DNA of 64,000 bases from a virus, in IMG/VR virus record IMGVR_UViG_3300008110_000166, positions 25,429 through 89,428 of that record. The stretch is one strand, 5' to 3'. Shown in pieces: positions 117 through 16,174 of the stretch (position 1 is its first letter; each line of letters starts with the position of its first letter). Under the pieces are notes generated by a model. That model was not told the DNA's origin and did no database searches. It worked only from the letters and a program-made list of their open reading frames with translations. The position numbers and the translations under genes were made by a program.

Positions 117-145
117 AGCGTATCCATCACACAGGTCAGATACAA
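117..145 (-). promoter_or_regulatory. cassette promoter (copy 1), leaderless type
   Basis: -35 TTGTAT, conserved spacer CTGACCTG plus nine bases (17 bp in all), -10 TACGCT. ATG of the left-edge gene follows the -10 by 7 nt. One of 22 near-identical promoters in the first 16 kb. Confidence 0.75.
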
Positions 146-229
146 AATCCATTCCGATAGCCCCGTGAGGCAAGTCGCGTCGCGGGGCTTATTGTTTGGG
201 GAAAGTGTCTGGCTCTCCCCGGTTGAGTT

Positions 230-523
230 CTAGAAGTGAACGACTGTGGCCTTTGACCACTTGACGAACAAGTGCCTGCCGGGGACACCGTCAATGGTGA
301 GCCACAGATACTTGCCGCCCTGAAAGACGTTGTCCGACTTGCGGACTTTCTCAATTTTCCTGATAGTTCCCGCTGCGTACCCGTAGGCGCTGCGCTCTGC
401 GGCCGTCGTCTTGAGGCCGAACAGGTGAGCCTCGTGACGCTGCTTATACGTGTCGTATGAGTAGCCGACAAGAATAATCTCGCCTGCTTGCAAGTCTTCA
501 ATTTTTTCTCGTGTCTTTTCCAT
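230..523 (-). CDS. hypothetical protein, leaderless cassette
   Basis: A 97-residue protein starting MEKTREKIEDLQAGEI. The N-terminus is helical and charged; the rest is probably a small beta-rich fold (YLWLTIDGVPGRHLFVKW near the end). A longer upstream reading exists but runs through the promoter. ATG 523 is exactly 7 nt after the -10 box, the spacing of neighbouring cassettes. Not recognised as a known family. Confidence 0.65.
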   Translation of the reverse strand: MEKTREKIEDLQAGEIILVGYSYDTYKQRHEAHLFGLKTTAAERSAYGYAAGTIRKIEKVRKSDNVFQGGKYLWLTIDGVPGRHLFVKWSKATVVHF

Positions 524-530
524 ACCACTA

Positions 531-559
531 AGCGTATAGGCCGCACAGGACAGGTACAA
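531..559 (-). promoter_or_regulatory. cassette promoter (copy 2), leaderless type
   Basis: -35 TTGTAC, spacer beginning CTGTCCTG, -10 TACGCT, then 7 nt to ATG. Same geometry as copy 1, including an identical -10 and initial base context. Confidence 0.75.
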
Positions 560-606
560 AGGCCAACGTTGAGCCCCGTCACCCAAGTCGCGGGGCGGGG
601 CTCGCA

Positions 607-632
607 GAAAAAGAGCAGGTGCTTTCGCACCC
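607..632 (-). terminator. intrinsic terminator of the 62-aa gene cassette
   Basis: On the minus strand a GGTGC/GCACC stem with a small AAAG-type loop is followed by TCTTTTTC, just after the stop of the gene at 650-838. It stands before the AGCCCCG repeat and promoter copy 2. Confidence 0.6.
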
Positions 633-649
633 ACTCCCTTGCTGGTTGG

Positions 650-838
650 TTAGGCGTTGATGGCTTTGCGGAGTTTCTTGGTCAAGTCCTTGACCGAGTT
701 CTCCAAGTCCATCTCTACCGTGATGAGGTAAAGGTTCCCCGTGGTGTCCTTGTTCAGACGCTCACGCACGAGGTCTCGTGCCGTGATGAGTGAAAGGATT
801 TCATTGACTGTTTCTGTGATTGTAAGTGTGTCTTCCAT
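650..838 (-). CDS. small acidic helical protein, leaderless cassette
   Basis: 62 residues, MEDTLTITETVNEILSL onwards, predicted mostly helical with heptad-like hydrophobic spacing ending in a basic tail (LTKKLRKAINA). ATG lies 7 nt after the -10 box. Flanked by its own promoter and terminator, so it appears monocistronic. Function unknown. Confidence 0.65.
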   Translation of the reverse strand: MEDTLTITETVNEILSLITARDLVRERLNKDTTGNLYLITVEMDLENSVKDLTKKLRKAINA

Positions 839-845
839 ACCAACA

Positions 846-874
846 ATCGTACAGAACGCACAGGTCAGATACCA
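846..874 (-). promoter_or_regulatory. cassette promoter (copy 3), leaderless type
   Basis: -35 TGGTAT, spacer CTGACCTG plus nine bases, -10 TACGAT, 7 nt to ATG. Confidence 0.75.
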
Positions 875-922
875 AAGTCATTCCGCTAGCCCCGCTATGT
901 CGAGTTGTGTGCCGGGGCTCCT

Positions 923-955
923 GGAAATAAATACCTGGCCCTCGCGAGCCAGGTA
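923..955 (-). terminator. intrinsic terminator of the acidic 56-aa gene
   Basis: Stem TACCTGGC/GCCAGGTA with an 8-base loop, followed on the minus strand by TTTATTTCC. It begins 11 nt after the stop codon of the gene at 966-1136. Confidence 0.7.
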
Positions 956-965
956 CTCATTCGGA

Positions 966-1136
966 TTAGAACTCTATGCCCTCGTAATCCGTTTCCTCGG
1001 TGGCCGCGTCATCCTCGGCTGCCTCACCCTCTGCTGCTGCTTCAAGCCACAAGTCCTCGTAGACCTGATTGGTTTCCCAAGTTTCAAGGTCGTTCTCGTA
1101 CTGGCCGTATTCATCGTTGTCGTAGTAGTCATCCAT
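966..1136 (-). CDS. very acidic small protein, leaderless cassette
   Basis: 56 residues, MDDYYDNDEYGQYEND onwards; more than a third of residues are Asp or Glu, with a run of Ala/Glu near the middle. The start is 7 nt after the -10 box. Extreme acidity in a tiny phage protein recalls DNA-mimic inhibitors, but there is no specific evidence for that here. Confidence 0.65.
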   Translation of the reverse strand: MDDYYDNDEYGQYENDLETWETNQVYEDLWLEAAAEGEAAEDDAATEETDYEGIEF

Positions 1137-1143
1137 AACTAAG

Positions 1144-1172
1144 ACATTACGGGCCGCGCAGGGCAGATACTA
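1144..1172 (-). promoter_or_regulatory. cassette promoter (copy 4), leaderless type
   Basis: -35 TAGTAT, spacer CTGCCCTG plus nine bases, -10 TAATGT, 7 nt to ATG. Confidence 0.75.
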
Positions 1173-1293
1173 AACGTGGAGATGGGTGTGCACGCAGCCC
1201 CGGTTCCGCGGTTGACCGGGTCGCAATGACGGGGCTCACGAGATGAAGAATAATTTGGAACGCGCTGCCGATTTCTATTTGAGCAGATACGCG

Positions 1294-1326
1294 AAAAAGC
1301 CCACCACACACTCGGTGCGGTGGGCT
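1294..1326 (-). terminator. intrinsic terminator after the 89-aa gene
   Basis: Minus-strand stem AGCCCACC/GGTGGGCT closing a loop of 13 bases, followed by a short T-run (TTTTTCGC). It lies 17 nt downstream of the stop of the gene at 1343-1612. Confidence 0.65.
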
Positions 1327-1342
1327 CTCGCTGTGGACTCTG

Positions 1343-1612
1343 TTATGGCCACACGACCGTGAAGCCATCTGCTACCTCGGTAATGTCGTACCCCGGCGAC
1401 TGCCAGCCGAAGTCGTACCCAAGGTAGCTGTAGTACTCGGCCTGCAAGCGAGCGTGTAGGCAAGCAATTTCTGCTTCCTGACGCGTTGCGTATGTGTACC
1501 ACGCAACCTTACAGCCTGACTCTGTCTTGATGGGCTTTGGACACGGTGGCAACTCTGCCTTGACACGCTCGTACTCTGTGCGAACGGCCTTGTCCTGTGC
1601 ATCTATAGTCAT
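1343..1612 (-). CDS. hypothetical protein, leadered cassette
   Basis: 89 residues starting MTIDAQDKAVRTEYERVK. The middle carries WYTYATRQEAEIACLHARL, a conserved-looking segment with Tyr/Trp residues, and the end is DFGWQSPGYDI...GFTVVWP. Unlike its neighbours it has a real leader: a purine-rich Shine-Dalgarno (GAGAGGGGG) sits 8 nt before ATG, so the upstream in-frame start that overlaps the -10 box is rejected. Function unknown. Confidence 0.65.
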   Translation of the reverse strand: MTIDAQDKAVRTEYERVKAELPPCPKPIKTESGCKVAWYTYATRQEAEIACLHARLQAEYYSYLGYDFGWQSPGYDITEVADGFTVVWP

Positions 1613-1644
1613 ATAATTCACCCCCTCTCCCTTCCTCACTTGTA

Positions 1645-1673
1645 ACACTACAGAACCCGCAAGTCAGATACAA
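1645..1673 (-). promoter_or_regulatory. cassette promoter (copy 5), leadered type
   Basis: -35 TTGTAT, spacer CTGACTTG plus nine bases, -10 TAGTGT; about 32 nt separate the -10 from ATG and contain a strong Shine-Dalgarno. Confidence 0.75.
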
Positions 1674-1807
1674 AATCAGTTTCTATAGCCCCGTTGCTGC
1701 AAATCAATTTCGCTGCCGATTGTTGTTTGTTTGTAGTAGTACTTCAGTTTGCTGGCCGTGGATTCTGTTGCCAAGCCCCACGCGGCTCCGTTTGTTAGAC
1801 AGTATGG

Positions 1808-2008
1808 CTATGAGTCCGAACACATCCCGTCCCCATCAATCGCCCAAGCGTCGATGAGTCGAGCACCGTTCTCACGGGCGACTTCGCGTCCGAATGCCTT
1901 CGCTGCCTTTGTGGCAGCAGCATCGCTTGCGAACTCGTCACCGTAGGACTCTGTCCACTCAGCGCCTTTCGGGCCGTTGAGCAGAGCACAAACCGTGTAT
2001 TCCTTCAC
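1808..2008 (-). CDS. hypothetical protein, GTG start, leadered cassette
   Basis: 66 residues starting MKEYTVCALLNGPKGAEW. The body (SDAAATKAAKAFGREV) is a likely helix between two short strands; the whole resembles small alpha/beta phage proteins of unknown role. Start is GTG, chosen because GGAAGGGGG sits 7 nt upstream. A leader hairpin (GTTCGAG/CTCGAAC) lies between the -10 and the Shine-Dalgarno. Confidence 0.65.
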   Translation of the reverse strand: MKEYTVCALLNGPKGAEWTESYGDEFASDAAATKAAKAFGREVARENGARLIDAWAIDGDGMCSDS

Positions 2009-2061
2009 TTATTCACCCCCTTCCAAGAAGTGTGGTTCGAGCGGTTCTCGAACGCATTTAC

Positions 2062-2090
2062 ATCTTACGAAACGCACAGGCCAGATACAA
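2062..2090 (-). promoter_or_regulatory. cassette promoter (copy 6), leadered type with hairpin
   Basis: -35 TTGTAT, spacer CTGGCCTG plus nine bases, -10 TAAGAT. The transcript would begin a few bases before a GTTCGAG/CTCGAAC hairpin at about 2034-2051. Confidence 0.75.
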
Positions 2091-2131
2091 AGTGGTGGTT
2101 TCTGTTGCCAAGTACCACCCAACTCCGTTTG

Positions 2132-2356
2132 TTAGACGGTTTGGTTCTCCCACAGACCTCGCGTCTTGTGTCCCACCAATGGATACTCATGATTGAGGTA
2201 TCCGATTGGGTAGTCCGCAGCGTAGCGATTGGTAGCAATGAAGGTTGCCATATCAATGCCGCAACGCTTGAGGTCACGCATGACAGAAGTCAGCAGGTGT
2301 GGCTTTATCACACGCTGACGAATCATCTGTCCATCGTGGAACTGAATAATCATCAT
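2132..2356 (-). CDS. hypothetical protein, leadered cassette
   Basis: 74 residues starting MMIIQFHDGQMIRQRV. Contains LLTSVMRDLKRCGIDMATF, a likely helix, and ends in GHKTRGLWENQTV. ATG 2356 is preferred over an upstream GTG because the GGGAAGGGGG Shine-Dalgarno overlaps that GTG and stands 8 nt before the ATG. The flanks duplicate those of the preceding cassette. Function unknown. Confidence 0.6.
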   Translation of the reverse strand: MMIIQFHDGQMIRQRVIKPHLLTSVMRDLKRCGIDMATFIATNRYAADYPIGYLNHEYPLVGHKTRGLWENQTV

Positions 2357-2413
2357 ATTTTTCACCCCCTTCCCAAGAAGTGTGTTTCAGGAACGGTTCC
2401 CGAACGCAGTATC

Positions 2414-2442
2414 ACCTTATGAAACACGCAGGCCAGATACCA
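2414..2442 (-). promoter_or_regulatory. cassette promoter (copy 7), leadered type with hairpin
   Basis: -35 TGGTAT, spacer CTGGCCTG plus nine bases, -10 TAAGGT. The leader has an imperfect hairpin (TTCGGGAAC/GTTCCTGAA) before the Shine-Dalgarno, like copy 6. Confidence 0.75.
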
Positions 2443-2510
2443 ATACCAAAAGAGCTGCGGCCGCATCAACAGCGAAGCCCCGATACTCCGCTCATGACGC
2501 GGGGCTCCTG

Positions 2511-2554
2511 GAAAAAATTAGGGGGTGTAACAAGGTTTCCCCTGCTACACCCCC
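2511..2554 (-). terminator. strong intrinsic terminator
   Basis: Nine-base-pair stem GGGGGTGTA/TACACCCCC followed on the minus strand by TAATTTTTTC, just downstream of the stop of the gene at 2562-2861. The clearest terminator in the cassette array. Confidence 0.8.
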
Positions 2555-2561
2555 TCGGGGG

Positions 2562-2861
2562 TTACTTGGCGAGAGCCCGCTCCATTACTGAAGTCATTGG
2601 CACTGGTTCGCCGTAGGTCTGTTCGTAAATTGCCATCAGAGCCTTCATTGCGCCCTTCTTGCTTCGGACAGTCACTCCGTACTGCTCTGCTACTCGCGAG
2701 AGTGGGTAGCGCAACGTACGGCACTTGTGGACAATTTCCATTGAGTATGACGAGATGAGCAAGTGAAGCCTGTATCGCTCAATTGCTTCGCCCTCAAGGC
2801 AAATCATTCCTGTCTCTGTTACTTCGGTTCCGTTGATTACTTCTTGCATTTTTGGGTTCAT
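2562..2861 (-). CDS. hypothetical protein, possible HTH
   Basis: 99 residues starting MNPKMQEVINGTEVTE. The second half (YPLSRVAEQYGVTVRSKKGAM) has the length and hydrophobic spacing of a helix-turn-helix, so DNA binding is possible. ATG 2861 lies 6 nt after AAGGAGGGG; a GTG further upstream lacks this support. Single-gene cassette ending in a strong terminator. Confidence 0.65.
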   Translation of the reverse strand: MNPKMQEVINGTEVTETGMICLEGEAIERYRLHLLISSYSMEIVHKCRTLRYPLSRVAEQYGVTVRSKKGAMKALMAIYEQTYGEPVPMTSVMERALAK

Positions 2862-2884
2862 TGGTGTCCCCTCCTTCACTTACT

Positions 2885-2913
2885 ACGTTACGGCACGCAC
2901 AGGACAGATACAA
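2885..2913 (-). promoter_or_regulatory. cassette promoter (copy 8), leadered type
   Basis: -35 TTGTAT, spacer CTGTCCTG plus nine bases, -10 TAACGT, short leader with an AAGGAGGGG Shine-Dalgarno. Confidence 0.75.
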
Positions 2914-3062
2914 AGGTGACCGAACGTGTGTTCGCATAGCCCCGGGTCTCAAGAGGTACAGCGGGGCTTGGCCGCGAAAGAGCCCGTACCCTATCTCAAC
3001 GTCGGCAGTGAAGGAAGGGAAGGGGTTGCCAACGGAGACTGGATACGGGCTATCGCCGTGGA

Positions 3063-3329
3063 CTACTCGTAATCTGAATAATCCTCGTTCTCGTCTAGGA
3101 ATGACGACAGATGAAGGCCGTCAATAATCCCAGAGACTGTCTTAGTAATTCCGTTCGGCATAACAATTTCAGTGTGCCAGTCTCCCTGATTAGCAAGCGA
3201 GATGGCCTGACGTGCTATCGGCAGGAATACTGGGTGAACTGCTGGATAGTGATTAGTTGCCAAGTGCCAACGGAGTGCTACGTCCGTATCGGCATTGGCC
3301 ACCATTTCTTCTGCGCTCATTCTGCCCAT
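3063..3329 (-). CDS. hypothetical protein, second gene of two-gene cassette
   Basis: 88 residues starting MGRMSAEEMVANADTD, ending in an acidic tail (DENEDYSDYE). Its ATG shares one base with the stop of the upstream gene (TAATG), with GAGGGAG about 8 nt before, so translation is coupled. The 3' flank carries a long-range AGCCCGTA/TACGGGCT pairing and a T-rich stretch that could end the transcript. Function unknown. Confidence 0.6.
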   Translation of the reverse strand: MGRMSAEEMVANADTDVALRWHLATNHYPAVHPVFLPIARQAISLANQGDWHTEIVMPNGITKTVSGIIDGLHLSSFLDENEDYSDYE

Positions 3330-3595
3330 TAGATTGCTCCCTCGTTCGCCATCATTTCTGCGAAGTGTCCAACAAACGTTGGCGCACTTACTGCGTTGTA
3401 ATGGTCTGCGATAGCGCAAGCCTGACTGAATGAGAGACAGGGCAGGTCAAACGTCAAACTGTCTGAACTGTCTCCAGTTGGTGAACTGAAGTACAGACGT
3501 ACTGACCATTCCGTGTTCACTCCGTAGAGCGACATTGATAATTTCTGAACTTGTGCGACTAGCACAGTTCCCTTTATTGCGACTTGGGTAGTCAT
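3329..3595 (-). CDS. hypothetical protein, first gene of two-gene cassette
   Basis: 88 residues starting MTTQVAIKGTVLVAQV, strand-rich at first (WSVRLYFSSPTGDSSDSLTF), then a helix with FSQACAIADHYNAV. The start follows AAGGGAATGAA. It is the only cassette gene with a long leader (about 120 nt) rich in complementary segments, so its expression may be controlled by RNA structure. Function unknown. Confidence 0.65.
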   Translation of the reverse strand: MTTQVAIKGTVLVAQVQKLSMSLYGVNTEWSVRLYFSSPTGDSSDSLTFDLPCLSFSQACAIADHYNAVSAPTFVGHFAEMMANEGAI

Positions 3596-3604
3596 TTCAT
3601 TCCC

Positions 3605-3720
3605 TTCGTGTAGTTGAGTAGTTGTTCTTGGAGTTCAGATGGGAGAGCCTGTCGGGAGACTTTGGTAATCTCCCAATTAGCGTTATGGGACACTCTTCAG
3701 TCTCCCACCTGAACGATTAT
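3605..3720 (-). promoter_or_regulatory. long structured 5' leader with alternative pairings
   Basis: Four segments of the minus-strand leader can pair in two ways: TGGGAGACT (3699-3707) with AGTCTCCC (3654-3661) or with TCTCCCA (3640-3646), and TGGGAGA (3669-3675) with the other partner. The two folds exclude each other, as in regulatory leaders. No known riboswitch class was recognised. Confidence 0.5.
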
Positions 3721-3721
3721 T

Positions 3722-3750
3722 ACTTTACAGTTTGCACAGGACAGATACTA
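3722..3750 (-). promoter_or_regulatory. cassette promoter (copy 9), long-leader type
   Basis: -35 TAGTAT, spacer CTGTCCTG plus nine bases, -10 TAAAGT, about 127 nt upstream of the first ATG. Confidence 0.75.
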
Positions 3751-3764
3751 AGTAACCGCCAGTG

Positions 3765-4046
3765 TTACGCTCCGCTCATATTGCCAAGCGTTCCGCACCT
3801 GAATATTTCTTGACGGGTCATTCCTGATATGTCGTTGAGTTCGCCACTCATCAGGTTCTCAATGTGGAGCAACTGCTCTTCTTCTATGTAGTCGCCCCAC
3901 TCGTCAAGTCGTGGACGACGACGACCTAAGTTCAGTGGACGACCGACGTCCACAAACTCGTCAAACTCTTCGCTATCGGAGTAGGCGAGTAGGTACGGCA
4001 GTGGCTTGCTCTTTGGCTTGTAGTTCCTTCTTTGCGTAATTCCCAT
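3765..4046 (-). CDS. hypothetical basic/acidic protein, leaderless cassette
   Basis: 93 residues starting MGITQRRNYKPKSKPLPY. Basic N-terminus, acidic middle (SDSEEFDEF), an Arg-rich stretch (NLGRRRPRLDEW) and a helical end. ATG is 6 nt after a TATTAT -10 box. Function unknown. Confidence 0.65.
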   Translation of the reverse strand: MGITQRRNYKPKSKPLPYLLAYSDSEEFDEFVDVGRPLNLGRRRPRLDEWGDYIEEEQLLHIENLMSGELNDISGMTRQEIFRCGTLGNMSGA

Positions 4047-4052
4047 ATTCCA

Positions 4053-4081
4053 ATAATACTAGACACACAGGACAAACACAA
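4053..4081 (-). promoter_or_regulatory. cassette promoter (copy 10), leaderless type
   Basis: -35 TTGTGT, spacer TTGTCCTG plus nine bases, -10 TATTAT, 6 nt to ATG. Slightly diverged spacer but the same geometry. Confidence 0.7.
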
Positions 4082-4182
4082 ACCGCGGTAGTAGAGCCCC
4101 GCAGCCGAGTTTGTACGGTGGGACGGCTGGCGGGGCTTACAAACAAGAGAAGCGACCCGAGTTGGGCCGCTTCCCGAGTTGG

Positions 4183-4404: not shown

Positions 4405-4420
4405 TTCTTTCCCTTCCGAA

Positions 4421-4436
4421 TGTTCCACGTGGAACA
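4421..4436. promoter_or_regulatory. parS-like 16-bp palindrome
   Basis: TGTTCCACGTGGAACA is a perfect palindrome and matches the chromosomal ParB-binding consensus TGTTNCACGTGNAACA at every fixed position. It lies between promoter and Shine-Dalgarno, so the RNA could also fold as an 8-bp hairpin with an ACGT loop. No parA/parB gene is seen in this window; host ParB could bind it. Confidence 0.6.
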
Positions 4437-4450
4437 TTTCCTCACCATCA

Positions 4451-4479
4451 AACTTAGTGTCCCCGCAGGACAGATACCA
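4451..4479 (-). promoter_or_regulatory. cassette promoter (copy 11), leadered type
   Basis: -35 TGGTAT, spacer CTGTCCTG plus nine bases, -10 TAAGTT; leader of about 40 nt contains the parS-like palindrome. Confidence 0.75.
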
Positions 4480-4568
4480 AATAGCCCCGCAGCCCGGAAT
4501 GTCGTCAACACCGGTGGCGGGGCTCATGAAACAAGCAACCACCCGTGAGTGGTTACCTGTCCGAGTGT

Positions 4569-4807: not shown

Positions 4808-4836
4808 ATGGTACATACAGCGCAGGACAGATACAA
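4808..4836 (-). promoter_or_regulatory. cassette promoter (copy 12), leadered type
   Basis: -35 TTGTAT, spacer CTGTCCTG plus nine bases, -10 TACCAT, short leader with Shine-Dalgarno. Confidence 0.75.
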
Positions 4837-4929
4837 AGTCCGCCACGCTAGCCCCGCGAGTCAAACCACCCCCCGGGGCTTTGCAGAGAAAGAATGCTAC
4901 CCGAAGGCAGCACTCTCTCTACTTACTGA

Positions 4930-5373: not shown

Positions 5374-5402
5374 AGCCTAGTAATGGGACAGCACAGATAC
5401 AA
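5374..5402 (-). promoter_or_regulatory. cassette promoter (copy 13), leadered type
   Basis: -35 TTGTAT, spacer CTGTGCTG plus nine bases, -10 TAGGCT. A TGGTC/GACCA inverted repeat follows the -10 immediately. Confidence 0.7.
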
Positions 5403-5588
5403 AGCGAAAGACCAGCTCGGAAACAACCTGGCTCTTTGTAAACCTTGTTATACCCCTTTGTTCAGCGCAAGCCCCGTTGGTTGGTCCGCGCAGCGGGGCT
5501 TTCCTAAAGAAATAGGCGGTGCGAGTGGAAGGGTTACTCGCACCGCCTCTTACCGAGCCTAAATGGAGAAAGGCTACAAGGTAAGTTC

Positions 5589-5921: not shown

Positions 5922-5928
5922 ACAGATA

Positions 5929-5957
5929 ATCGTATCCGTCACACAGGACGGATACAA
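5929..5957 (-). promoter_or_regulatory. cassette promoter (copy 14), leaderless type
   Basis: -35 TTGTAT, spacer CCGTCCTG plus nine bases, -10 TACGAT, 7 nt to the first ATG. Confidence 0.75.
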
Positions 5958-5960
5958 AAC

Positions 5961-6653: not shown

Positions 6654-6682
6654 AGATTACAGAGAACACAGGACAGAAACAA
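6654..6682 (-). promoter_or_regulatory. cassette promoter (copy 15), leaderless type
   Basis: -35 TTGTTT, spacer CTGTCCTG plus nine bases, -10 TAATCT, 7 nt to ATG. Confidence 0.75.
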
Positions 6683-6713
6683 AGGCCGCGCTGTCGCGCG
6701 AAGAGGCCGGGGC

Positions 6714-7318: not shown

Positions 7319-7347
7319 AGAGTACAGGTCACGCAAGTCAGATACCA
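7319..7347 (-). promoter_or_regulatory. cassette promoter (copy 16), leaderless type
   Basis: -35 TGGTAT, spacer CTGACTTG plus nine bases, -10 TACTCT, 6 nt to ATG. Drives a three-gene cassette. Confidence 0.75.
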
Positions 7348-7356
7348 ACTTGCTTA

Positions 7357-7720: not shown

Positions 7721-7749
7721 AGGTTACTTGGCGCACAGGTCAGATACAA
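7721..7749 (-). promoter_or_regulatory. cassette promoter (copy 17), leaderless type
   Basis: -35 TTGTAT, spacer CTGACCTG plus nine bases, -10 TAACCT, 7 nt to ATG. Confidence 0.75.
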
Positions 7750-7861
7750 AGACCCGTGCCGGGGCTTATGGGTTACTATTTATGGGTGGCTGACGAAAAG
7801 AAAAAGAAAAAAGACAAACCAGCAAAGGTCAAGCGCAAAGAGCGTAGACCGAGTTGCTGTC

Positions 7862-8077
7862 CTATTCGTTAGACCAGCGAGCCTCTACCCATTCGTGAAG
7901 TTTCGGCGGGCAATTGTCTCTATGAAAAGGGTCAAGCATTGTTCCGTTCAGTGCTCTCGCAATAGACGGCTTCACTTCATCTAAATAGTTGTAATAAATC
8001 TGCCCGTATCTCATTGTTTCGTCGTGGCGAAGTTCGTACTTCAGCGCAACATCAGCAAGAAACTCTAGGTAATTCAT
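7862..8077 (-). CDS. small helical protein, last gene of WhiB operon
   Basis: 71 residues starting MNYLEFLADVALKYEL, with Tyr-rich helices (YGQIYYNYLDEV). ATG overlaps the stop of the WhiB-like gene by ATGA, so it is coupled to it and may work with it. Function unknown. Confidence 0.65.
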   Translation of the reverse strand: MNYLEFLADVALKYELRHDETMRYGQIYYNYLDEVKPSIARALNGTMLDPFHRDNCPPKLHEWVEARWSNE

Positions 8078-8355
8078 ACCGCAACTTTATCTCGCTCACC
8101 ACGAAGTAAGTACGAAGGCAATACGGCGTATCCAGCCATATGACGTTCTCTCTCCGTCTCTCCGCCCCACACTCCGTATTGTTCTTTATTCTTGCGTGCT
8201 ATATCACGACACTGAATTGCTACTGGGCAAGTGCTACAAACTTTCTTGGCAAGTGCTTCACGCTTGTCTCGCCGTTCAGGTCGTTCGGCACTCTTCCCGT
8301 AAAAGATATAAGCCTTGCCGTGACAAGGTCGTGGTGTATCAAAGACGATGCTCAT
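8074..8355 (-). CDS. WhiB-family iron-sulphur transcription factor
   Basis: 93 residues. Four cysteines (C11, C40, C43, C49; the last three as CSTCPVAIQC) match the [4Fe-4S] ligand set of WhiB proteins, followed by the family signature YGVWGGETERER. WhiB proteins bind the primary sigma factor region 4 and alter promoter choice in actinobacteria; phage copies can act against host WhiB. ATGA overlaps on both sides place it inside a five-gene operon. The C-terminal region is short, so DNA contact may be limited. A second WhiB lies at 32052-32441. Confidence 0.85.
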   Translation of the reverse strand: MSIVFDTPRPCHGKAYIFYGKSAERPERRDKREALAKKVCSTCPVAIQCRDIARKNKEQYGVWGGETERERHMAGYAVLPSYLLRGERDKVAV

Positions 8356-9163: not shown

Positions 9164-9192
9164 ACAGTACAGATAACGCAGGTCAGATACAA
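9164..9192 (-). promoter_or_regulatory. cassette promoter (copy 18) of the WhiB operon
   Basis: -35 TTGTAT, spacer CTGACCTG plus nine bases, -10 TACTGT, 7 nt to ATG. Its -35 lies 33 bp from that of a divergent promoter of the same family. Confidence 0.75.
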
Positions 9193-9224
9193 CGCTACGC
9201 CGAGCGGGGCTCTTGTACGGGCTT

Positions 9225-9253
9225 TAGTATCTGTCCTGTGCCCCCTGTATCGT
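9225..9253 (+). promoter_or_regulatory. cassette promoter (copy 19), plus strand
   Basis: -35 TAGTAT, spacer CTGTCCTG plus nine bases, -10 TATCGT. Same family as the minus-strand copies but facing right, driving the putative RNA. Confidence 0.75.
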
Positions 9254-9685: not shown

Positions 9686-11605
9686 GTGCGCCTATTTCTT
9701 GACCACGACTTACTGGCACTGGACTTCCCCTATGACGCCGACCAAGTTGCTGAAATCAAGGCAGTACCCGGGGCTAAGTGGGACAAGGTGGACAAGTTAT
9801 GGAAAGTGCCTATTAGTTCCATAGATGAAGCCCGTGGTTTCGCACAGAAACATAAGTTTCAGATATCTGATGAAGTTCTGCGGTTTACTATCCCGGGAAG
9901 GAAAGCAAAGCGTGGGGCATATCTCAAAGGTGACTGGGTATTCATACAAATCCCGTATGACAAAGTAGTAATCAACGCCGTGAAGCGGATACCAGGGATA
10001 ACTTGGGATAAAGGTGAAGTGGCGTGGAGAGCACCCGTAACCTCGGCACAAGACACTATTGACTGGGCTAACTCATTCGCCGTATCAGTAGATGAGACAG
10101 TATTCCGTGTGGCAGATGAGACAAAGGCAAAGTTAGAGCGATTACAACAAGCCTCACGCTCAACAGACGCAGAGATAGAAGTGCCGGGATTACAAGGAAC
10201 GCTATTGCCTTATCAAAGAGCAGGCGTGGAGTACGCCACCCGTGCGAAGCGAACGTTCATAGCAGACGAGATGGGTTTGGGAAAAACATTACAAGCGATA
10301 GCAACACTGGAGTATTCCTCGCAGACAGATGAGGTGTATCCAGCAGTAGTCGTATGCCCACCAACTCTCGCACTCAACTGGAAAGCAGAGTGGAACAGAT
10401 GGTTGCCTCACAGACGAGTTTCCGTTGTAAGTAATCGCAAAGAGTTTCCTGAAAGTGGAACTTATGATGTCGTGGTAGTCGGTTACTCAAACATTCAGCA
10501 TTGGGAAAAGCAACTAACTGGGCATAACTCATACGTATTTGATGAAAGTCATTACACAAAGACACCAACGGCGCAACGAACTAAGTCGGCTATAAAGATG
10601 GCAAAGAGCGCACCCAAACACGGCATTGTGTTGTGTCTTACTGGAACACCCGTAACCAACAGACCAGCAGAGTACGCAAGTCAGTTAGACATAATCGGAA
10701 AACTCAAAGAGTTTGGTGGCTTGTGGGGTTTCTATCGGCGTTACTGTAACGCATTCCAAGACAGGTTTGGTCAGTGGAATATCAGTGGAAACTCACACCT
10801 TGACGAACTCAATGACAGACTTCGTGGTACTTGCTACATACGCCGTACCAAGTCACAAGTGCTATCCGAACTGCCACCCGTAGTACATAACCCAGTTCTC
10901 GTGGAAGGAACAGAGGCGGGGCTCAAGGAGTACGTGAAGGCAGAGCGAGACATCATCAAGTACATAACGGACAGAGCCCGTGAAATCGCATTGGAACTCG
11001 GAGAAAGCCCGTACTCGGCAGCGGTGGTGGCAAGAATAAAGGCAGAAAGCAACGAACACCTAGTCCGACTATCCGTTCTTAGACGACTATCAGCGAAAGC
11101 GAAAATGCCGTTGGTAGAGGAGTGGGTAAACGAGCGCATAAATGACGGGAAAAAGGTGGTTATCGCTGCGCACCACAGAGACGTTGTAGATGAACTCGCA
11201 AGAAAGTTCGGAAATCTACGGATACAAGGCGATATGAAAGTCACCGACATTGAGGAACAAAAGCATAAGTTTCAGACGCTACCCGTAGAGGAAGCACCCG
11301 TAATCGTTCTAAGTATTCAGGCAGCCAAGACTGGACACACGCTTACCGCAGCGCAAGACATTGTATTTGTGGAGTTACCGTGGACACCCGCAGACCTTGA
11401 CCAAACTTATTCACGACTTCACCGCATTGGACAGCAAGGAAGCGTGACGGCGACTTATCTACTGATGGAAGGAACCATTGACGAGGAAATCTATTCGCTT
11501 ATTGAGAGAAAGCGGAAGGTTGTCAATGCGTCAGTAGAAGGTGGAGAGTTCGTTCAGTCGTCAGCGTCGCAGTTGGTACTGAACTTCATAGACCGACACC
11601 GCTAA
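9686..11605 (+). CDS. SNF2-family helicase with HARP-like N-terminus
   Basis: 639 residues. The N-terminal part has two similar segments, KWDKVDKLWKVP (about 31-42) and ITWDKGEVAWRAPV (about 105-118), like the HARP repeats of SMARCAL1-type annealing helicases. The ATPase core follows: LLPYQRAGVEYA, motif I DEMGLGKT (194-201), motif II DESH (286-289), motif III LTGTP (318-322), and motif VI SRLHRIGQQG near residue 590. Such enzymes use ATP to remodel or reanneal DNA, for example at stalled forks. GTG start, probably leaderless (6 nt from TATTAT). Usual length for phage members of the family. Confidence 0.88.
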   Translation: MRLFLDHDLLALDFPYDADQVAEIKAVPGAKWDKVDKLWKVPISSIDEARGFAQKHKFQISDEVLRFTIPGRKAKRGAYLKGDWVFIQIPYDKVVINAVKRIPGITWDKGEVAWRAPVTSAQDTIDWANSFAVSVDETVFRVADETKAKLERLQQASRSTDAEIEVPGLQGTLLPYQRAGVEYATRAKRTFIADEMGLGKTLQAIATLEYSSQTDEVYPAVVVCPPTLALNWKAEWNRWLPHRRVSVVSNRKEFPESGTYDVVVVGYSNIQHWEKQLTGHNSYVFDESHYTKTPTAQRTKSAIKMAKSAPKHGIVLCLTGTPVTNRPAEYASQLDIIGKLKEFGGLWGFYRRYCNAFQDRFGQWNISGNSHLDELNDRLRGTCYIRRTKSQVLSELPPVVHNPVLVEGTEAGLKEYVKAERDIIKYITDRAREIALELGESPYSAAVVARIKAESNEHLVRLSVLRRLSAKAKMPLVEEWVNERINDGKKVVIAAHHRDVVDELARKFGNLRIQGDMKVTDIEEQKHKFQTLPVEEAPVIVLSIQAAKTGHTLTAAQDIVFVELPWTPADLDQTYSRLHRIGQQGSVTATYLLMEGTIDEEIYSLIERKRKVVNASVEGGEFVQSSASQLVLNFIDRHR

Positions 11606-11637
11606 CTGCCAGCTCGAGCCCCGCTCGCCCTCGCAGT

Positions 11638-11666
11638 TAGTTTCTGTCCTGCGTGCTTATTAGGCT
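11638..11666 (+). promoter_or_regulatory. cassette promoter (copy 20), plus strand
   Basis: -35 TAGTTT, spacer CTGTCCTG plus nine bases, -10 TAGGCT. The leader starts with a TTGCC-GTAA-GGCAA hairpin before a GGAAGGGGG Shine-Dalgarno. Confidence 0.7.
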
Positions 11667-11710
11667 TACGTTGCCGTAAGGCAAACGAGCCCAAGGAAGG
11701 GGGTGAACAA

Positions 11711-11932: not shown

Positions 11933-11987
11933 TGCGTAGGGGCAGGGGCAGGCAACCCTTGTCCCTCGCTCGCCCGTGTGCCGGGGC

Positions 11988-12419
11988 TTACTTGGCCTTG
12001 GGCTCGGGGGCTACACCCATAATCTCATCTGATATGAGTTTGGTGTACTTCTTGCGCAGACGCCATATTTTTTGGTTCATTTCTGCCATTGCGTCTGTCT
12101 CACGGGCTTTGCGTATTGCTTCTTTGTCGTAAACGCCAAACTTCTTGAACAATATGTCATCAATGTCATTGTTCTCAAGGATTATGTCGGTAATCCAACC
12201 AGCCTGCTTGTCAATGCTCATCAAAAGTTCGCACATACCTTCGTAGCCAAACTCGGTGAATACTCGGTTCACCAAAAGTGAACAAAAGTGAGAGCGATAC
12301 AGTACTTCTGCGTCAGCGCTCTTGTTCATAAACTCGCTCAACCAAACGGCAAGTTCTTCACGGGTCGGCTCACCATCAAACGAACTGTCGTCAGGGTCAA
12401 AATCAGGTTCATTATCCAT
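11988..12419 (-). CDS. hypothetical acidic protein
   Basis: 143 residues starting MDNEPDFDPDDSSFDG; acidic disordered N-terminus, then a helical body (LLMSIDKQAGWITDIILE) and a basic C-terminus. No Shine-Dalgarno of strength; a TAAGGC box 7 nt upstream is a poor -10, so the promoter is unclear. Lies downstream of the TIGR03299-like gene. Function unknown. Confidence 0.6.
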   Translation of the reverse strand: MDNEPDFDPDDSSFDGEPTREELAVWLSEFMNKSADAEVLYRSHFCSLLVNRVFTEFGYEGMCELLMSIDKQAGWITDIILENNDIDDILFKKFGVYDKEAIRKARETDAMAEMNQKIWRLRKKYTKLISDEIMGVAPEPKAK

Positions 12420-12474
12420 TTAGCCAGCCTTACTCGCCGCGGGGCTTACAGCTCAATGGTATCGCTAATACTTG

Positions 12475-13500
12475 TCAAGCCAGTGACAGGATTATCTCTT
12501 GCGCTGTGATTTTCTTTTGTGTCACCCACGAGTTGTTGCTCATTGACGCGAGTGCTTTTTCGTCTGCTTTTGCGTCTCGGTAGTGGTCAAGGTACTCAAC
12601 TATTGCGTTGTAAGCACTCCACCCGTTGTACCCGTAGCCACCTGCGTTCTTTTCATTGTCATACACACCACGAACGAGTGCGACAACTCCGTCACGATTT
12701 CGTTTCTGTCTTTCGGTATCTGTTGCTTTCGCTGGGAATACTCCGTCAAGTATCTTCGTGAGTTGTGTGCTTGCCTGCGGAACGCTAATCGTCAATAGTT
12801 TCTCGGCGGTCTTTTGGAACTGTGTAGCCCACGCTGTTGAGATTTCTAATACTTTTTGTGCTTCCTCAATGGCGTGTTCAGCGTTACGAGTATGTCGTGC
12901 TGTGAACACCCGTGGTGCTTGTCCGATACCTGCGATTACCGTGTTCTTACACACCGCACGAATAGAAGTGTTAGCGAACGTAATCGGGGTCTTTCCGTCG
13001 TGTCCGTTACGAACGAGTAAGTAGCGTTCTATTTTGTCGTTTATTCCCGTCGGGTCAATGACTAGCCCACCCAAGTCAAGCGAACTAAAGAACTCACGCC
13101 CACCGTCTAGCACTCCGCAAGTGTCCACTACTGCGTCACCCTTGCTTGCGCCGACAATGGCGAGTGCGTAGTCCAAGCACTCACGGTTCTGCTGTACGAC
13201 ATAGCGTGTGCCGACTGTTGCTAGTCCATCAAACGAGCCATCAGGGTTCACCCGTACCGTTGCCCGACTATCCTCAATGACTATTGACGAGCCATCAGGG
13301 TTCGTAATCAGGTTTCCTTCCGTGTCCACGACTGCGACTTTCGTGGTGACGACATCATAATCAGCCTGTGCCGTTGCCAACATTTCCTCGGCTGTCTGTA
13401 GTCCCTTCATAGCCACGCCAAGTCTGTGCCACGGGATTTCTCTCTCGGCATACGCCATTTTCGCTACACCCTTAGCGTCTATCTCTAGCCCGTGTGCCAT
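12475..13500 (-). CDS. DUF932 / TIGR03299 phage-plasmid-like protein
   Basis: 341 residues. The opening MAHGLEIDAKGVAKMAYAE..PWHRLG and the later NRECLDYALAIVGA, GGREFFSSLDLGG and TSIRAVCKNT segments match the phage/plasmid-like family known as TIGR03299 in the DUF932 superfamily, whose usual length is 320-360 aa. The biochemical role is not established; members are common in actinophages and mobile elements near replication genes. Confidence 0.8.
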   Translation of the reverse strand: MAHGLEIDAKGVAKMAYAEREIPWHRLGVAMKGLQTAEEMLATAQADYDVVTTKVAVVDTEGNLITNPDGSSIVIEDSRATVRVNPDGSFDGLATVGTRYVVQQNRECLDYALAIVGASKGDAVVDTCGVLDGGREFFSSLDLGGLVIDPTGINDKIERYLLVRNGHDGKTPITFANTSIRAVCKNTVIAGIGQAPRVFTARHTRNAEHAIEEAQKVLEISTAWATQFQKTAEKLLTISVPQASTQLTKILDGVFPAKATDTERQKRNRDGVVALVRGVYDNEKNAGGYGYNGWSAYNAIVEYLDHYRDAKADEKALASMSNNSWVTQKKITAQEIILSLA

Positions 13501-13588
13501 TTCGTGTGTCTTTCTCTATGTCTCAGTTAGATTTATCTGAAACATACCACACGCTTACTGCGTTACAGGGTAGGTGTAGCCCCGGCTT

Positions 13589-13732
13589 CTACCGTCTGAA
13601 CTCCGCCCACGGGTCACGCCCTGCGTTCACTTCCTCTTGTTCCCAGTCAAGTAGGTCGTTCGCCCACTTCTCGCACTCGTCGCAAGCGCACTTGGGTTCG
13701 TGCCATTTGGGTTGCTGTGGTCGTGGTCGCAT
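13589..13732 (-). CDS. small zinc-binding-like protein
   Basis: 47 residues, MRPRPQQPKWHEPKCACDECE then a Trp-rich acidic end. The CACDEC cluster and nearby His could bind zinc. ATG shares a base with the preceding stop (TAATG). Second gene of its cassette. Confidence 0.55.
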   Translation of the reverse strand: MRPRPQQPKWHEPKCACDECEKWANDLLDWEQEEVNAGRDPWAEFRR

Positions 13733-13980
13733 TACTCGTCGTCCTCGTCGTCGTCGTACATTCCGAACAACTCTGTCCAACACTTCGGGTGAGTTCCTGA
13801 GATAAGTTGCTCTCGCAAGTCTGCCGAGAGAAACGGGAATGCGTCTTGTATGTACGCACCTGCGTTACGCAACTCAATACCGCGCAAGCCTTCCTCGCGT
13901 GGCATAGTGAGTTCTCCAAACTCGCCACAGTGGTAGCAACGCTTCGTCTCAATGGTGATGGTGTCGGTGGTGGTGTTCAT
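13732..13980 (-). CDS. small protein with CxxC motif, leadered cassette
   Basis: 82 residues starting MNTTTDTITIETKRCYH. CYHCGEFGEL near residue 15 and a later C (HPKCW) suggest a metal site; the C-terminus is acidic (MYDDDEDDE). ATG 13980 is preferred over an in-frame ATG two codons upstream because GAAGGGAG would otherwise abut it. Confidence 0.6.
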   Translation of the reverse strand: MNTTTDTITIETKRCYHCGEFGELTMPREEGLRGIELRNAGAYIQDAFPFLSADLREQLISGTHPKCWTELFGMYDDDEDDE

Positions 13981-14001
13981 AATCATCTCCCTTCGTATCC
14001 A

Positions 14002-14030
14002 ATAGTAGTGACAACACAGGACAGATACTA
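14002..14030 (-). promoter_or_regulatory. cassette promoter (copy 21), leadered type
   Basis: -35 TAGTAT, spacer CTGTCCTG plus nine bases, -10 TACTAT, 21-nt leader with GAAGGGAG. Confidence 0.75.
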
Positions 14031-14035
14031 AGCGA

Positions 14036-14287
14036 TTACTCGCCTAGCACTATCCTCTGTGTCGGGTGAATGAGTGTGCCGTACTTCTTGACCATCTCGT
14101 AGTCGGCTTGCTGTAAGTTGCCACGACAATACTTACGAACGATACCGCTGATGGTGTCGCCATACTCAACCTTGTGCGATACCTTCTCACAGGTGTATGG
14201 TGCGTGTATTGACTGCCACGCTGAATAGGTAACTGTGGCGAATGCGACTACTGCGATTACTACTTGGGCTATCTGCTTTGTTCTCAT
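14036..14287 (-). CDS. membrane-anchored LysM-domain protein (second copy)
   Basis: 83 residues. An N-terminal hydrophobic segment (IAQVVIAVVAFATVTYSAW) is followed by a single LysM domain: HKVEYGDTISGIVRKYC, then VKKYGTLIHPTQRIVL. Cys residues at either side of the domain could form a disulphide. Same plan as the protein at 5589-5921. ATG lies 7 nt after a -10 TACCGT. Likely envelope-located and peptidoglycan-binding. Confidence 0.72.
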   Translation of the reverse strand: MRTKQIAQVVIAVVAFATVTYSAWQSIHAPYTCEKVSHKVEYGDTISGIVRKYCRGNLQQADYEMVKKYGTLIHPTQRIVLGE

Positions 14288-14294
14288 ATCATCT

Positions 14295-14323
14295 ACGGTA
14301 GGGAATACTGAAACACAAGTCAA
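14295..14323 (-). promoter_or_regulatory. canonical-type promoter, leaderless
   Basis: -35 TTGACT, 17-bp spacer, -10 TACCGT, 7 nt to ATG. The spacer lacks the family motif, so this is a related but separate promoter with the same leaderless geometry. Confidence 0.65.
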
Positions 14324-14466
14324 GGATTTGTGAGCCTTATGGGATAAGGGTTATACCCGTAGCACTACCCGTAGGCACTTGCGACACTCCACCTATAAGC
14401 GCACTGTGTCGGTTGCTATGTCGGTGCGTAGTGCGCCTGCCTTGTGTGCCGGGGCTTCGAGCTGGC

Positions 14467-14535
14467 CTACAGTTTGTCTTTGACTAGGTAAGTGAATGCG
14501 AGCAACATTGCGCTCAATATGACCAACTGGTTCAC
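14467..14535 (-). CDS. 22-aa hydrophobic miniprotein overlapping upstream stop
   Basis: The frame reads MNQLVILSAMLLAFTYLV then KDKL, a short membrane-spanning segment with a charged tail. Its GTG start overlaps the TGA of the secreted Thr-rich protein (GTGA), the arrangement of translational coupling. Tiny size and weak Shine-Dalgarno make it tentative. Confidence 0.4.
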   Translation of the reverse strand: MNQLVILSAMLLAFTYLVKDKL

Positions 14536-15311
14536 TTCTTGACTGTCGCCTTCTTGCTCTTGACGACTGGCTTCTTGCTCTTGACGACTGGCTTCTTGAC
14601 GAATGGCTTGCGGGTCGTCGTTACTGATGGGGTGAATACAGTGCTCTCAACTCCTGCTACTGCGCTAGCAACTAGCGGTGTCGTAGTCGTTGTCGTAGTC
14701 GGTGTCGGTGCTTCGTATGCCACTGGCGTCGGCTCATCTACTGGTTCGCTCGCTGGTTCGTTCATTGGTGCTGGTGCTTGCGTCGTCGTCGTCACTGCGA
14801 CAGTGGTGGTCGTAATCACTGCGACAGTCGTCGTCGTGGTCGGTGTGACAGTGGTGGTCGTCGGTGCTACTCCATCTATTGTGCCGTCACACGATACGGC
14901 ACAGTCTCCGTTCGTCACGACTGGGGTGGTGCTTGCGCCTATCAACTGATACACGACACTACGTGCGAGTGCGACATCTATTCCACTTCGCCACAGTGCG
15001 AGTGTAAAGTTCGGGCGATAACCATTGCCACCTGAACCATTACCAATACCTACGCCGACATACTCACACACGCCGAACCAACCGTGCGCCTGTGCTATCG
15101 CCTTGCCTAGTGCGGTGTGTCCACCATTGGAATAAGTCACTAGGCGTTCGTATGCTGTCGTGCCTACCTCGGTGTCAATGATGGTGAACACTGTAGGCAC
15201 TGCTGATGATGGTGCTTGCGTCGGCTCTAGGCATTCATCTGCTCTCGCTTCACTGACTGGGGTGAACGACAGTGCGACTGCGACTGCGAGTGTGGTGGTT
15301 AGTAACTTCAC
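14532..15311 (-). CDS. secreted Thr-rich protein with basic tail
   Basis: 259 residues. Residues 1-24 form a signal peptide (LLTTTLAVAVALSF, then SEARA-D cleavage-like end). A folded part of about 120 residues with four cysteines includes KAIAQAHGWFGVCEYV. It is followed by Thr runs (TTTTVTPTTTTT), which resemble glycosylatable linkers, and a Lys-rich end with two KKPVVKS repeats. GTG start behind AAGGAG. The plan suggests an extracellular or wall-bound protein; the exact role is unknown. Confidence 0.7.
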   Translation of the reverse strand: MKLLTTTLAVAVALSFTPVSEARADECLEPTQAPSSAVPTVFTIIDTEVGTTAYERLVTYSNGGHTALGKAIAQAHGWFGVCEYVGVGIGNGSGGNGYRPNFTLALWRSGIDVALARSVVYQLIGASTTPVVTNGDCAVSCDGTIDGVAPTTTTVTPTTTTTVAVITTTTVAVTTTTQAPAPMNEPASEPVDEPTPVAYEAPTPTTTTTTTPLVASAVAGVESTVFTPSVTTTRKPFVKKPVVKSKKPVVKSKKATVKK

Positions 15312-15365
15312 TATGTCTCCTTGTAGTAGGGATACCCGTAGGCTACCCGTGGCACTTGCGACTTG

Positions 15366-15746
15366 CTACTTCGTGTTCTCGTCGTCGGCTTCTTGCCAAC
15401 CTTGACCGTCGTCGGTTGCGACAAGGGTGGTGAGTGAACCGTCGTCGTTCGTGCGGAATATCCAACACCAACGGCAACACGGCTTATCACCTTTGCGACT
15501 TGGGTGCTGTCCTTTACCTAGTCGTTCACCTAGTCGGGGTAGGGCTGTGAGTAGGGTGACGATACAGTCGTGACACAACTTCCACGGGTGGTCTTCATCT
15601 TCGTCTGCGAGACTGTCACTGAAACCGCTGTAGTAACCAAACTGATTTGCGTCTAACAACCAACCGTCGTCTATCAGTTCGTTATGAATGTGCGCTTCAT
15701 ACGACTTCTCACAAGCGTCGCATACGACAATGTGACCATCTCTCAC
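15366..15746 (-). CDS. cysteine-rich zinc-finger protein
   Basis: 126 residues. CDAC near residue 9, CHDC near residue 58 and CCRWCW near residue 90 are likely metal ligands. The GTG start overlaps the TGA of the previous gene (GTGTGA), so it is translated by coupling; a TTG further upstream would overlap by 61 nt. Function unknown. Confidence 0.6.
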   Translation of the reverse strand: MRDGHIVVCDACEKSYEAHIHNELIDDGWLLDANQFGYYSGFSDSLADEDEDHPWKLCHDCIVTLLTALPRLGERLGKGQHPSRKGDKPCCRWCWIFRTNDDGSLTTLVATDDGQGWQEADDENTK

Positions 15747-16138
15747 ACGACACCTGCGAATACTTGTGGTGTGAAACTGCCAACCAATGTCGGTGACTGC
15801 CAACCTTCTATGACTGTCTCAAGTGTGCGTCGCACCTGTCGTGCGTCTGCCTCTCTACCTTGTCGCACCATCTTGCCTGTCTTGGTGTTAGGTGCTGTCT
15901 CTGCGTCGGTGAGTAGGCACTGCTCAAGTTCGTATAGTGACAGGGTGAGTAGCAACACCTCGTCGCTAGTCAAGTATGCGCCTTTCGTCTTGACCTTACG
16001 AAACAACTTCACGACACGCTCTGACGCTGATGGGTCGGTGTCTGCGAGGTCGTCTGTGTATCGGTAGTCAAGTGTGCCTAGTACCTCAAGTGCTTCACGC
16101 TCTGCGTCGGTGAGTAGGTAGTGAGTAAGTGTCTCCAT
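15743..16138 (-). CDS. hypothetical helical protein, leaderless
   Basis: 131 residues starting METLTHYLLTDAEREAL; helical and charged, with LTSDEVLLLTLSLYELEQCLL. ATG 7 nt after the -10 box. First gene of the last minus-strand cassette. Not recognised. Confidence 0.65.
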   Translation of the reverse strand: METLTHYLLTDAEREALEVLGTLDYRYTDDLADTDPSASERVVKLFRKVKTKGAYLTSDEVLLLTLSLYELEQCLLTDAETAPNTKTGKMVRQGREADARQVRRTLETVIEGWQSPTLVGSFTPQVFAGVV

Positions 16139-16145
16139 ACCTCAC

Positions 16146-16174
16146 AGGATAGTCACGACACTGGACAGATACCA
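16146..16174 (-). promoter_or_regulatory. cassette promoter (copy 22), leaderless type
   Basis: -35 TGGTAT, spacer CTGTCCAG plus nine bases, -10 TATCCT, 7 nt to ATG. Last member of the family in this window. Confidence 0.75.

Follow-up and report, generated by a model that had tools for sequence, protein, structure and literature searches.

The 64,000-nucleotide stretch analyzed here, referred to as the window, covers positions 25,429–89,428 of the 90,420-base IMG/VR virus record IMGVR_UViG_3300008110_000166, from a phage designated G000, and contains part of an array of near-identical, promoter-like sites. Each site joins a conserved 17-bp block to a TANNNT hexamer of the -10 type at a nearly invariant distance, and in related phages a different block occupies the same place, having been exchanged in parallel at nearly all of the orthologous promoters compared. 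On the alignments described here, this pattern amounts to a recognition site and its trans-acting reader changing in concert. It is most readily explained by a phage-controlled class of promoters, in which a phage factor would read the block, contact host RNA polymerase, and switch on the array, a reading to which we assign a probability of about 0.55.

The promoter array and its fixed geometry

A preliminary description of the window had proposed 22 promoters in its first 16 kb. All 22 are present at 117–16175 (20 on the minus strand and two on the plus strand), and a position weight matrix built from only the 12 sites outside the window recovers exactly these 22 and none in the remaining 48 kb; in 20 sequences simulated from the window by an order-2 Markov model, the same matrix yields 0–3 matches apiece. 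Over the full record, a strict motif pattern finds 27 matches (26 minus, one plus; none for the reversed pattern), and an iterated matrix finds 36 sites above 9 bits, 34 of them strong (26–43 bits) and two weak (17.5 and 18.5 bits), with no match for the reversed matrix and 0–3 for 20 column-permuted matrices. The strong copies extend across ~25 kb of the record. The array does not begin at window position 117, as had been described, but at record 16,125, some 9.3 kb before the window opens, and the 12 further promoters lie in that interval.

Read by information content, the consensus is TTNGTATCTGNCCTGYGY, followed by six weak positions, a G-leaning position, and TANNNT; with TANNNT taken as the -10 element, the block spans roughly -37 to -20. 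The formula first given, TNGTAT-CTGWCCTG-N9-TANNNT, fits 10 of the 22 sites literally; its W is in fact N, all four bases occurring there, T may replace its second C, and conservation (Y-G-Y) extends over the opening three of its "nine variable bases". The claim of fixed spacing, by contrast, holds firmly. When block sites in G000 are sought with no -10 requirement (up to two mismatches), 34 of 36 are followed by TANNNT at the canonical distance, and in no case does the hexamer sit one base nearer or farther. Comparable counts are obtained in relatives, where G numbers denote phage records and L numbers the loci or stretches compared: 31/32 in G003, 29/30 in G038, 19/19 in L147, 45/47 in G025, and 14/14 in L142, with two mismatches permitted per block and four for G025. 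A hexamer displaced by one base in either direction occurs at one G025 site only across the six phages, and 172 of the 178 pooled block sites have their -10 at the canonical distance.

The sites resemble promoters in their downstream sequence as well. In 12 of the 34 strong copies, the -10 hexamer is followed 6 or 7 nt later by an ATG (three and nine copies, respectively), whereas any other ATG offset within the first 50 nt accounts for at most two of the 34, and these 12 promoters look leaderless. Upstream of the window, ten of the 12 promoters are followed at 29–50 nt by an ATG together with a Shine-Dalgarno-like sequence, often after CTACTAC; the remaining two are a leaderless promoter at record 22,993 and the upstream copy in a tandem pair. 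From these features, the array sites probably act as promoters in vivo.

Concerted change of the block among related phages

Relatives were drawn from a search with the major capsid protein, as the best 80 of 421 related IMG/VR stretches; against cultured phages (977 records), all identities for this protein fall below 60%, with Brevibacterium and Gordonia phages at the top (46–48%). The G000 motif itself, allowing up to three mismatches, was sought in 38 related records, many of them fragments and 27 containing the helicase that marks the array region. It occurs 35 times in G033, a near-identical phage, once in each of four records, and not at all in 33, with two matches in all for the reversed motif. 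By an exact scan of viral contigs, the G033 contig holds 25 sites, two near relatives have one and two sites, respectively, and two further contigs have a single site apiece; the stretches examined of L156 and L161 each gave a single match. In 84,980 prokaryote genomes there are six scattered single matches, where a hand estimate gives ~15 by chance. The motif thus appears nearly confined to this phage and its very close relatives. The preliminary description held that absence of the motif from related phages would count against it, and taken literally the motif is missing, with 0–1 copies in 37 of the 38 records; yet a replacement block is found at orthologous promoters, an outcome that strengthens the core idea.

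In 11 relatives besides the window's phage, the region flanking the helicase has repeated motifs of its own. Aligned on TANNNT, these give eight well-supported block types, including that of G000, in about the same register, and a weak ninth:

G003, L123, L125: TTTGGAAATTTGGTAT(C/T)
G038, L128–L130: TTTGTAAATCTGATATC
L121, L122 (helicase 89% identical to that of the window): TTTGGTTTCTGATATTG
L141, L142, L150: CTAGACATCTGTTGTA
L147: AATCCGGAGAANNACGCA
G025: TTTGTCGGTTAGGGGTGGG
G022: GGAAACTCTTACCCCCC
L266, L143 (weak ninth type): TTGGAAATCTGAAGCAC, three sites each

The comparison of G003 with G038 carries the argument. The two phages are closely related: 114 proteins align over at least 80% of both partners with a median identity of 92%, and 72 are at least 90% identical. 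All 33 sites in G003 (160 kb) fall within 78.8–107.2 kb, and 30 of 31 in G038 fall within 98.8–126 kb (171.8 of 172.5 kb scanned), with no match to the reversed matrix in either genome. Pairing orthologous promoters by the 80 nt downstream gives 25 pairs, in which block positions 4, 9, and 12 differ in 25, 21, and 24 cases; the other 14 block positions differ in 0–6 and spacer positions in 6–14. A third phage, 5805_451, shares the G003 block while being about as far from G003 as G038 is (of 17 genes, six are closer, nine farther, and two equal). Its 20 pairs with G003 differ at positions 4, 9, and 12 in 0, 1, and 1 cases, and at position 16 (C/T) in 15; its 18 pairs with G038 differ at the same three positions in 18, 16, and 18.

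The parallel change is not an artefact of how sites were selected. Site picking tolerates four mismatches, so that a G003-type block retained in G038, which would show three, would have been seen. When G038 is read with no block requirement at all, downstream sequence is found for 27 of 35 G003 sites, and 25 of these 27 carry the G038-type block; the two exceptions are G003 sites with poor blocks. Copies within one genome are 90–91% identical over the block, a value partly raised by the tolerance of up to four mismatches in site picking, as compared with 39% in the spacer, 31–37% in the NNN of the -10 hexamer, and 25–29% in the flanks. Neutral positions are near-random while the block is ~90% identical, a contrast that recent copying does not account for and selection by a common reader does. 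Shared promoters carry the block of the local phage although relatives lack many of one another's cassette genes, so that the block behaves as a property of the phage and not of the cassette. Conservation amid near-random neighbors, combined with concerted change at orthologous promoters, strongly indicates a dedicated reader of the -35/spacer block, as the preliminary description had suggested.

L266, L143, L267, L268, and L272 have three sites each, a number also reached by the shuffled control, and were counted since they match a known block or one another. In L144 and L145, GCTAACATCGTGCC precedes TANNNT at 9 and 11 sites, alongside a dense GCTATCTTTATT motif, and AATAGGTGGCGAGACAGC often precedes the GCTAACATCGTGCC block promoter, as in L144. 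No convincing block was found in 13 of 30 loci (L330, L331, L321, L300, L307, L339, L338, L342, L146, and L110–L113), although L146 has one exact site of the G038 type; the G038-type scan also gave single matches in unrelated-looking contigs. A block was sought and not found in G029 and G032 (L110–L113), where GACGGTGGCGGA-like repeats are present, with an 8-mer in up to 18 copies. A repeat search over 21 groups returned non-block repeats for L121, L141, L143–L146, L150, L156, L161, G022, G029, and G032, and those repeats were not taken as blocks. G014, G018, G020, G023, G026, and G030 have instead a dense motif on both strands, in 45–98 copies per stretch, with TAGATAAG or TAGGTAAG cores and only a partial tie to promoters. 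Related phages that lack blocks (L100–L103, L106–L109, and L114–L116) show 45–98 copies of a 10–14-bp motif with these cores on both strands, often in close pairs and differing among phages. When 48 kb from each of the cultured relatives Cantare and ChisanaKitsune was screened by k-mers, no comparable array was seen. In the distantly related Brevibacterium phage Cantare (L343, 485–16931), a 19-bp palindrome, ATACATAGAATCTATGTAT, recurs with variants and is perhaps an operator.

Array layout and candidate readers

The sites and other features of the window are as follows:

117..146, minus: array promoter 1 (TTTGTA..TACGCT), leaderless type
531..560, minus: array promoter 2, leaderless type
846..875, minus: array promoter 3, leaderless type
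1144..1173, minus: array promoter 4, leaderless type
1645..1674, minus: array promoter 5
2062..2091, minus: array promoter 6
2414..2443, minus: array promoter 7
2885..2914, minus: array promoter 8
3722..3751, minus: array promoter 9, leader similar to G003 92748 and G038 111268
4053..4082, minus: array promoter 10, leaderless type
4451..4480, minus: array promoter 11, parS-like palindrome in its leader
4808..4837, minus: array promoter 12
5374..5403, minus: array promoter 13, the weakest among the 22
5929..5958, minus: array promoter 14, leaderless type
6654..6683, minus: array promoter 15, leaderless type
7319..7348, minus: array promoter 16, leaderless type
7721..7750, minus: array promoter 17, ATG 7 nt past the -10 and a second in-frame ATG
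9164..9193, minus: array promoter 18, leaderless type, upstream of genes including the array WhiB
9224..9253, plus: array promoter 19, divergent from promoter 18
11637..11666, plus: array promoter 20, leader alike in G003, G038, and L128
14002..14031, minus: array promoter 21
16146..16175, minus: array promoter 22, leaderless type, the last of the array
4421..4436, no strand: parS-like palindrome TGTTCCACGTGGAACA in the promoter 11 leader
8074..8355, minus: array WhiB (class III), 93 aa, the reader candidate first proposed
9686..11605, plus: SNF2-type helicase, the conserved anchor for locating equivalent arrays in relatives
17720..18100, minus: small basic protein just past the array end, with a sub-threshold DUF4364 match only

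Array genes are small and many are absent from relatives, while the SNF2 helicase and a DUF932 gene inside the array are widely conserved. Not every gene has its own promoter: the WhiB gene at 8074–8355 is one of several co-directional genes downstream of the promoter at 9164–9193. In G025 and G022 (L104, L105, L117), leaderless genes often have common first coding bases, ATGAACAGCGAC or ATGGAAACAGCGAC, possibly a conserved initially transcribed element. The parS-like palindrome TGTTCCACGTGGAACA occurs in perfect form in the window and at L099 187, L122 3988, L123 299, L128 2929 and 3535, and L173 11673 and 12279; the G025 form, TGTTTCACGTGAAACA, occurs three times (L104 8344, L105 7910 and 10456). 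In several phages these palindromes lie inside the leader of the corresponding array promoter, and none is found in the dense-motif stretches or in L125, L142, L147, or L117. Could they be phage sites for host ParB? Elsewhere in the window (19452–23360 and 37399–38205), matches to a 2OG-Fe(II) oxygenase, an AurF-like oxygenase, a methyltransferase, and a TauD-like protein lie close together, a group that in our judgement is unusual phage cargo.

Candidate readers were compared along the block series of the relatives, and none is convincing. The array WhiB, which the preliminary description had put forward, is nearly identical in G003 and G038 though their blocks differ: two residues differ over the shared stretch, none of them in the C-terminal tail, and L123, with a G003-type block, has the Ile of G038. 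WhiB matches number one to three in each of 15 phage records. WhiB proteins bind region 4 of sigma-A; a WhiB could play the part that AsiA plays in T4, in which case specificity must come from elsewhere. A sigma-70 family factor, also proposed, finds no support, with no Sigma70_r2 (PF04542) match in any of the 15 records in a search that detected 10 of 14 positive-control genomes. A 225-aa protein (29540–30217) has a sigma region 4 score and is judged more probably to be of the small-terminase type, our own assignment, its best PHROGs match being labelled otherwise.

The other candidates fare little better. In the XRE protein (record 18319–18537), the recognition helix is nearly constant, and in a winged-HTH protein (record 4081–4419), G003 and G038 have the same helix-turn-helix (HTH) but for one residue. 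The protein at 17720–18100, winged-HTH-like by our reading, follows the block partly, but the version in L125, whose block is G003-like, is very different. The g105132 family, whose G000 member has no Pfam match, has the most fixed differences (7/135), but L227, with the same block, is only 49% identical. A helicase-associated/HTH protein (record 12076–12447) has sigma-r4 and HTH matches and no counterpart found in G003. Since the comparison of 17 genes is mosaic, tree conflict alone picks out no gene.

There remains a pair of overlapping small genes, RHH1 and RHH2 (G000 record 8072–8663; L263–L342), which is conserved across the phage group and lies near a WhiB gene. RHH1 (record 8406–8576, 55 residues) is encoded beside RHH2 (114 aa, ending in conserved cysteines), at a distance of about 7.5 kb from the array. 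An AlphaFold model of RHH1 (mean pLDDT 86.8) supports a ribbon-helix-helix fold, its Foldseek neighbors in the PDB being mostly of that class (Arc, CopG, NikA, AmrZ), at weak E-values (best 0.11, none below 0.001) and with Pfam matches below cut-off. Its presumed DNA-binding segment has two fixed differences, I21L and D24S (2/54, as compared with 41/2317 for the 17 genes together). Ser24 accompanies TCTG cores (G000, the G038 group, L266) and Asp24 accompanies TTTG cores (G003, 5805_451, L227). The strand and helices are nonetheless identical in dense-motif G018 and G011 despite motifs TAGATAAG and TAGGTAAG, and similar in phages with further motifs. RHH1 is accordingly a weak candidate, with a rather low chance of being the reader.

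Competing explanations and significance

If the array is phage-controlled, each promoter would consist of a host-type -10 (TANNNT) and a 17-bp phage-specific block that overlaps or replaces the -35. A DNA-binding factor, presumably phage-encoded and activating, would recognize the block and touch host RNA polymerase at a fixed geometry, turning on ~34 short transcription units of small, mostly accessory genes, about a third of them leaderless. The specificity of this factor would shift between related phages, with nearly all block copies per genome following. The near-absolute spacing in six phages is suggestive of a factor in contact with RNA polymerase, in the way of MotA. T4 MotA boxes (PMC2988021) are centered at -30 in place of the -35, 12 +/-1 from a -10 of the host type that is kept. 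As in those middle promoters, a phage element supplants the -35 at a set distance from a host-type -10, if TANNNT is the -10. Unlike the MotA box, the array block is ~17 bp rather than ~10, more strictly spaced, and variable between related phages, and it belongs to an actinophage-like genome. Neither MotA nor AsiA was found among the proteins scanned with Pfam, no family search having been aimed at either.

Several points weigh against phage-directed activation. TTTG or TTNG at about -36 is common to several block types and sigma-A spacing is itself constrained, so that the rigidity could be partly that of sigma. An operator for a repressor, overlapping the -35, would produce a largely similar sequence record. 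The related phages with dense motifs fit a promoter-only scheme poorly, and none of WhiB III, the XRE protein, the two winged-HTH-like proteins, and RHH2 follows the block.

The strongest competitor, less likely but serious, is that these are ordinary strong sigma-A promoters, with the block as operator for a phage-specific repressor that silences the array or excludes related superinfecting phages and whose specificity diversifies as in immunity groups. Cluster A mycobacteriophages (PMC6550527, PMC9283540) have 20–30 asymmetric repressor sites of 13–14 bp per genome, with motifs that diverge with the repressor. Like those stoperators, the array sites are asymmetric, oriented, present in tens per genome, and genome-specific in motif; retention of TTTG near -36 over several block types and the dense both-strand motifs of six array regions, which extend beyond promoters and are more stoperator-like, also fit a repressor. 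Unlike stoperators, array sites are hardly found away from promoters: block copies apart from a -10 are rare, and repression needs no rigid spacing. No candidate repressor follows the block. Nor is there a sign of lysogeny in a search confined to tyrosine integrases (PF00589), which found none in 15 of 15 records, some of these being fragments.

Two further alternatives are improbable to a similar degree. A phage sigma or core-binding factor might read the block and the -10 both, in keeping with an element that is rigid from -37 to -7 and a -10 reduced to TANNNT. Against this stand the absence of Sigma70_r2, a TANNNT of host type that stays the same as the block changes, and a region-4 footprint shorter than 17 bp. 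The block might otherwise mimic the site of a host regulator and differ because hosts differ; possible tail-fibre proteins of G003 and G038, not annotated as such, are far more diverged than the rest, which is compatible with different hosts. The exact G000 motif is, however, essentially absent from the prokaryote genomes scanned, a result that concerns the G000 block only and a set that may lack the hosts of these phages. Least probable, and already disfavored, is that no reader exists and that promoters with hairpins are mobile shuffling cassettes alike through recent copying or gene conversion. In its favor, cassette genes do shuffle, and 13 of 34 promoters have both GCCCC and GGGGC, a possible terminator stem, in the 130 nt before them (a count with no control); against it, spacer, -10 NNN, and flanks are near-random, and GC stems in general (16/34 as compared with 13.1 in shuffles) show no clear excess.

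That last idea has a precedent in the PeSL elements of T4-like phages, promoters and stem-loops around small shuffling genes (PMC4503421); the array differs in having possible stem-loops near only some promoters and a block that appears kept by selection and specific to each relative. The preliminary description had likened and contrasted the array with SAS elements, and the contrast is sound: the SAS of Cluster K phages (PMC3203893) is 13 nt long, sits at the start codon, and has been proposed to act in translation, and the ESAS is an inverted repeat whose half-sites vary between phages. The array block is likewise a repeated, phage-specific sequence before small genes, but it is asymmetric, upstream of the -10, and ~20 nt from the nearest start codons.

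Phage polymerases of the T7/T3 type offer another parallel, their entire promoter set changing in step with the reader. The array element differs in spanning -37 to -7 with a sigma-like -10. Sets of phage sites that change along with a reader are already known from immunity repressors and phage polymerases. Literature keyword searches, which covered few subscription papers, returned no description of sigma-type promoters with a rigid block changed in place at nearly all shared sites. The observation in the preliminary description was real and understated, and its interpretation was right in kind, a dedicated reader, while the particulars, WhiB or sigma, are not borne out.

A broader proposal, held tentatively and at somewhat less than even odds, extends phage-directed activation to the group: the arrays may form a lineage-specific, repeatedly rewritten code of the sigma-appropriation type, MotA-like and under diversifying selection, in actinophage-like viruses that are large and apparently virulent. 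Within a phage, one block type stands at up to about 45 promoters, and the diversifying selection on the block perhaps reflects escape from repressors of rivals, satellites, or hosts. How a regulator changes specificity despite dozens of dependent binding sites is an open question that the arrays address. G003, 5805_451, G038, L266, L121/L122, and G000 form a natural series with defined differing positions and ~20–35 sites per well-covered genome (G003, 5805_451, G038, and G000), and the promoters of its closer members can still be aligned, making the path of specificity readable site by site. If the rewritten-code proposal is true, joint evolution of a regulator and its full target set would be directly measurable in a natural phage series, and the reader, if found, would provide a programmable promoter system for actinobacteria.

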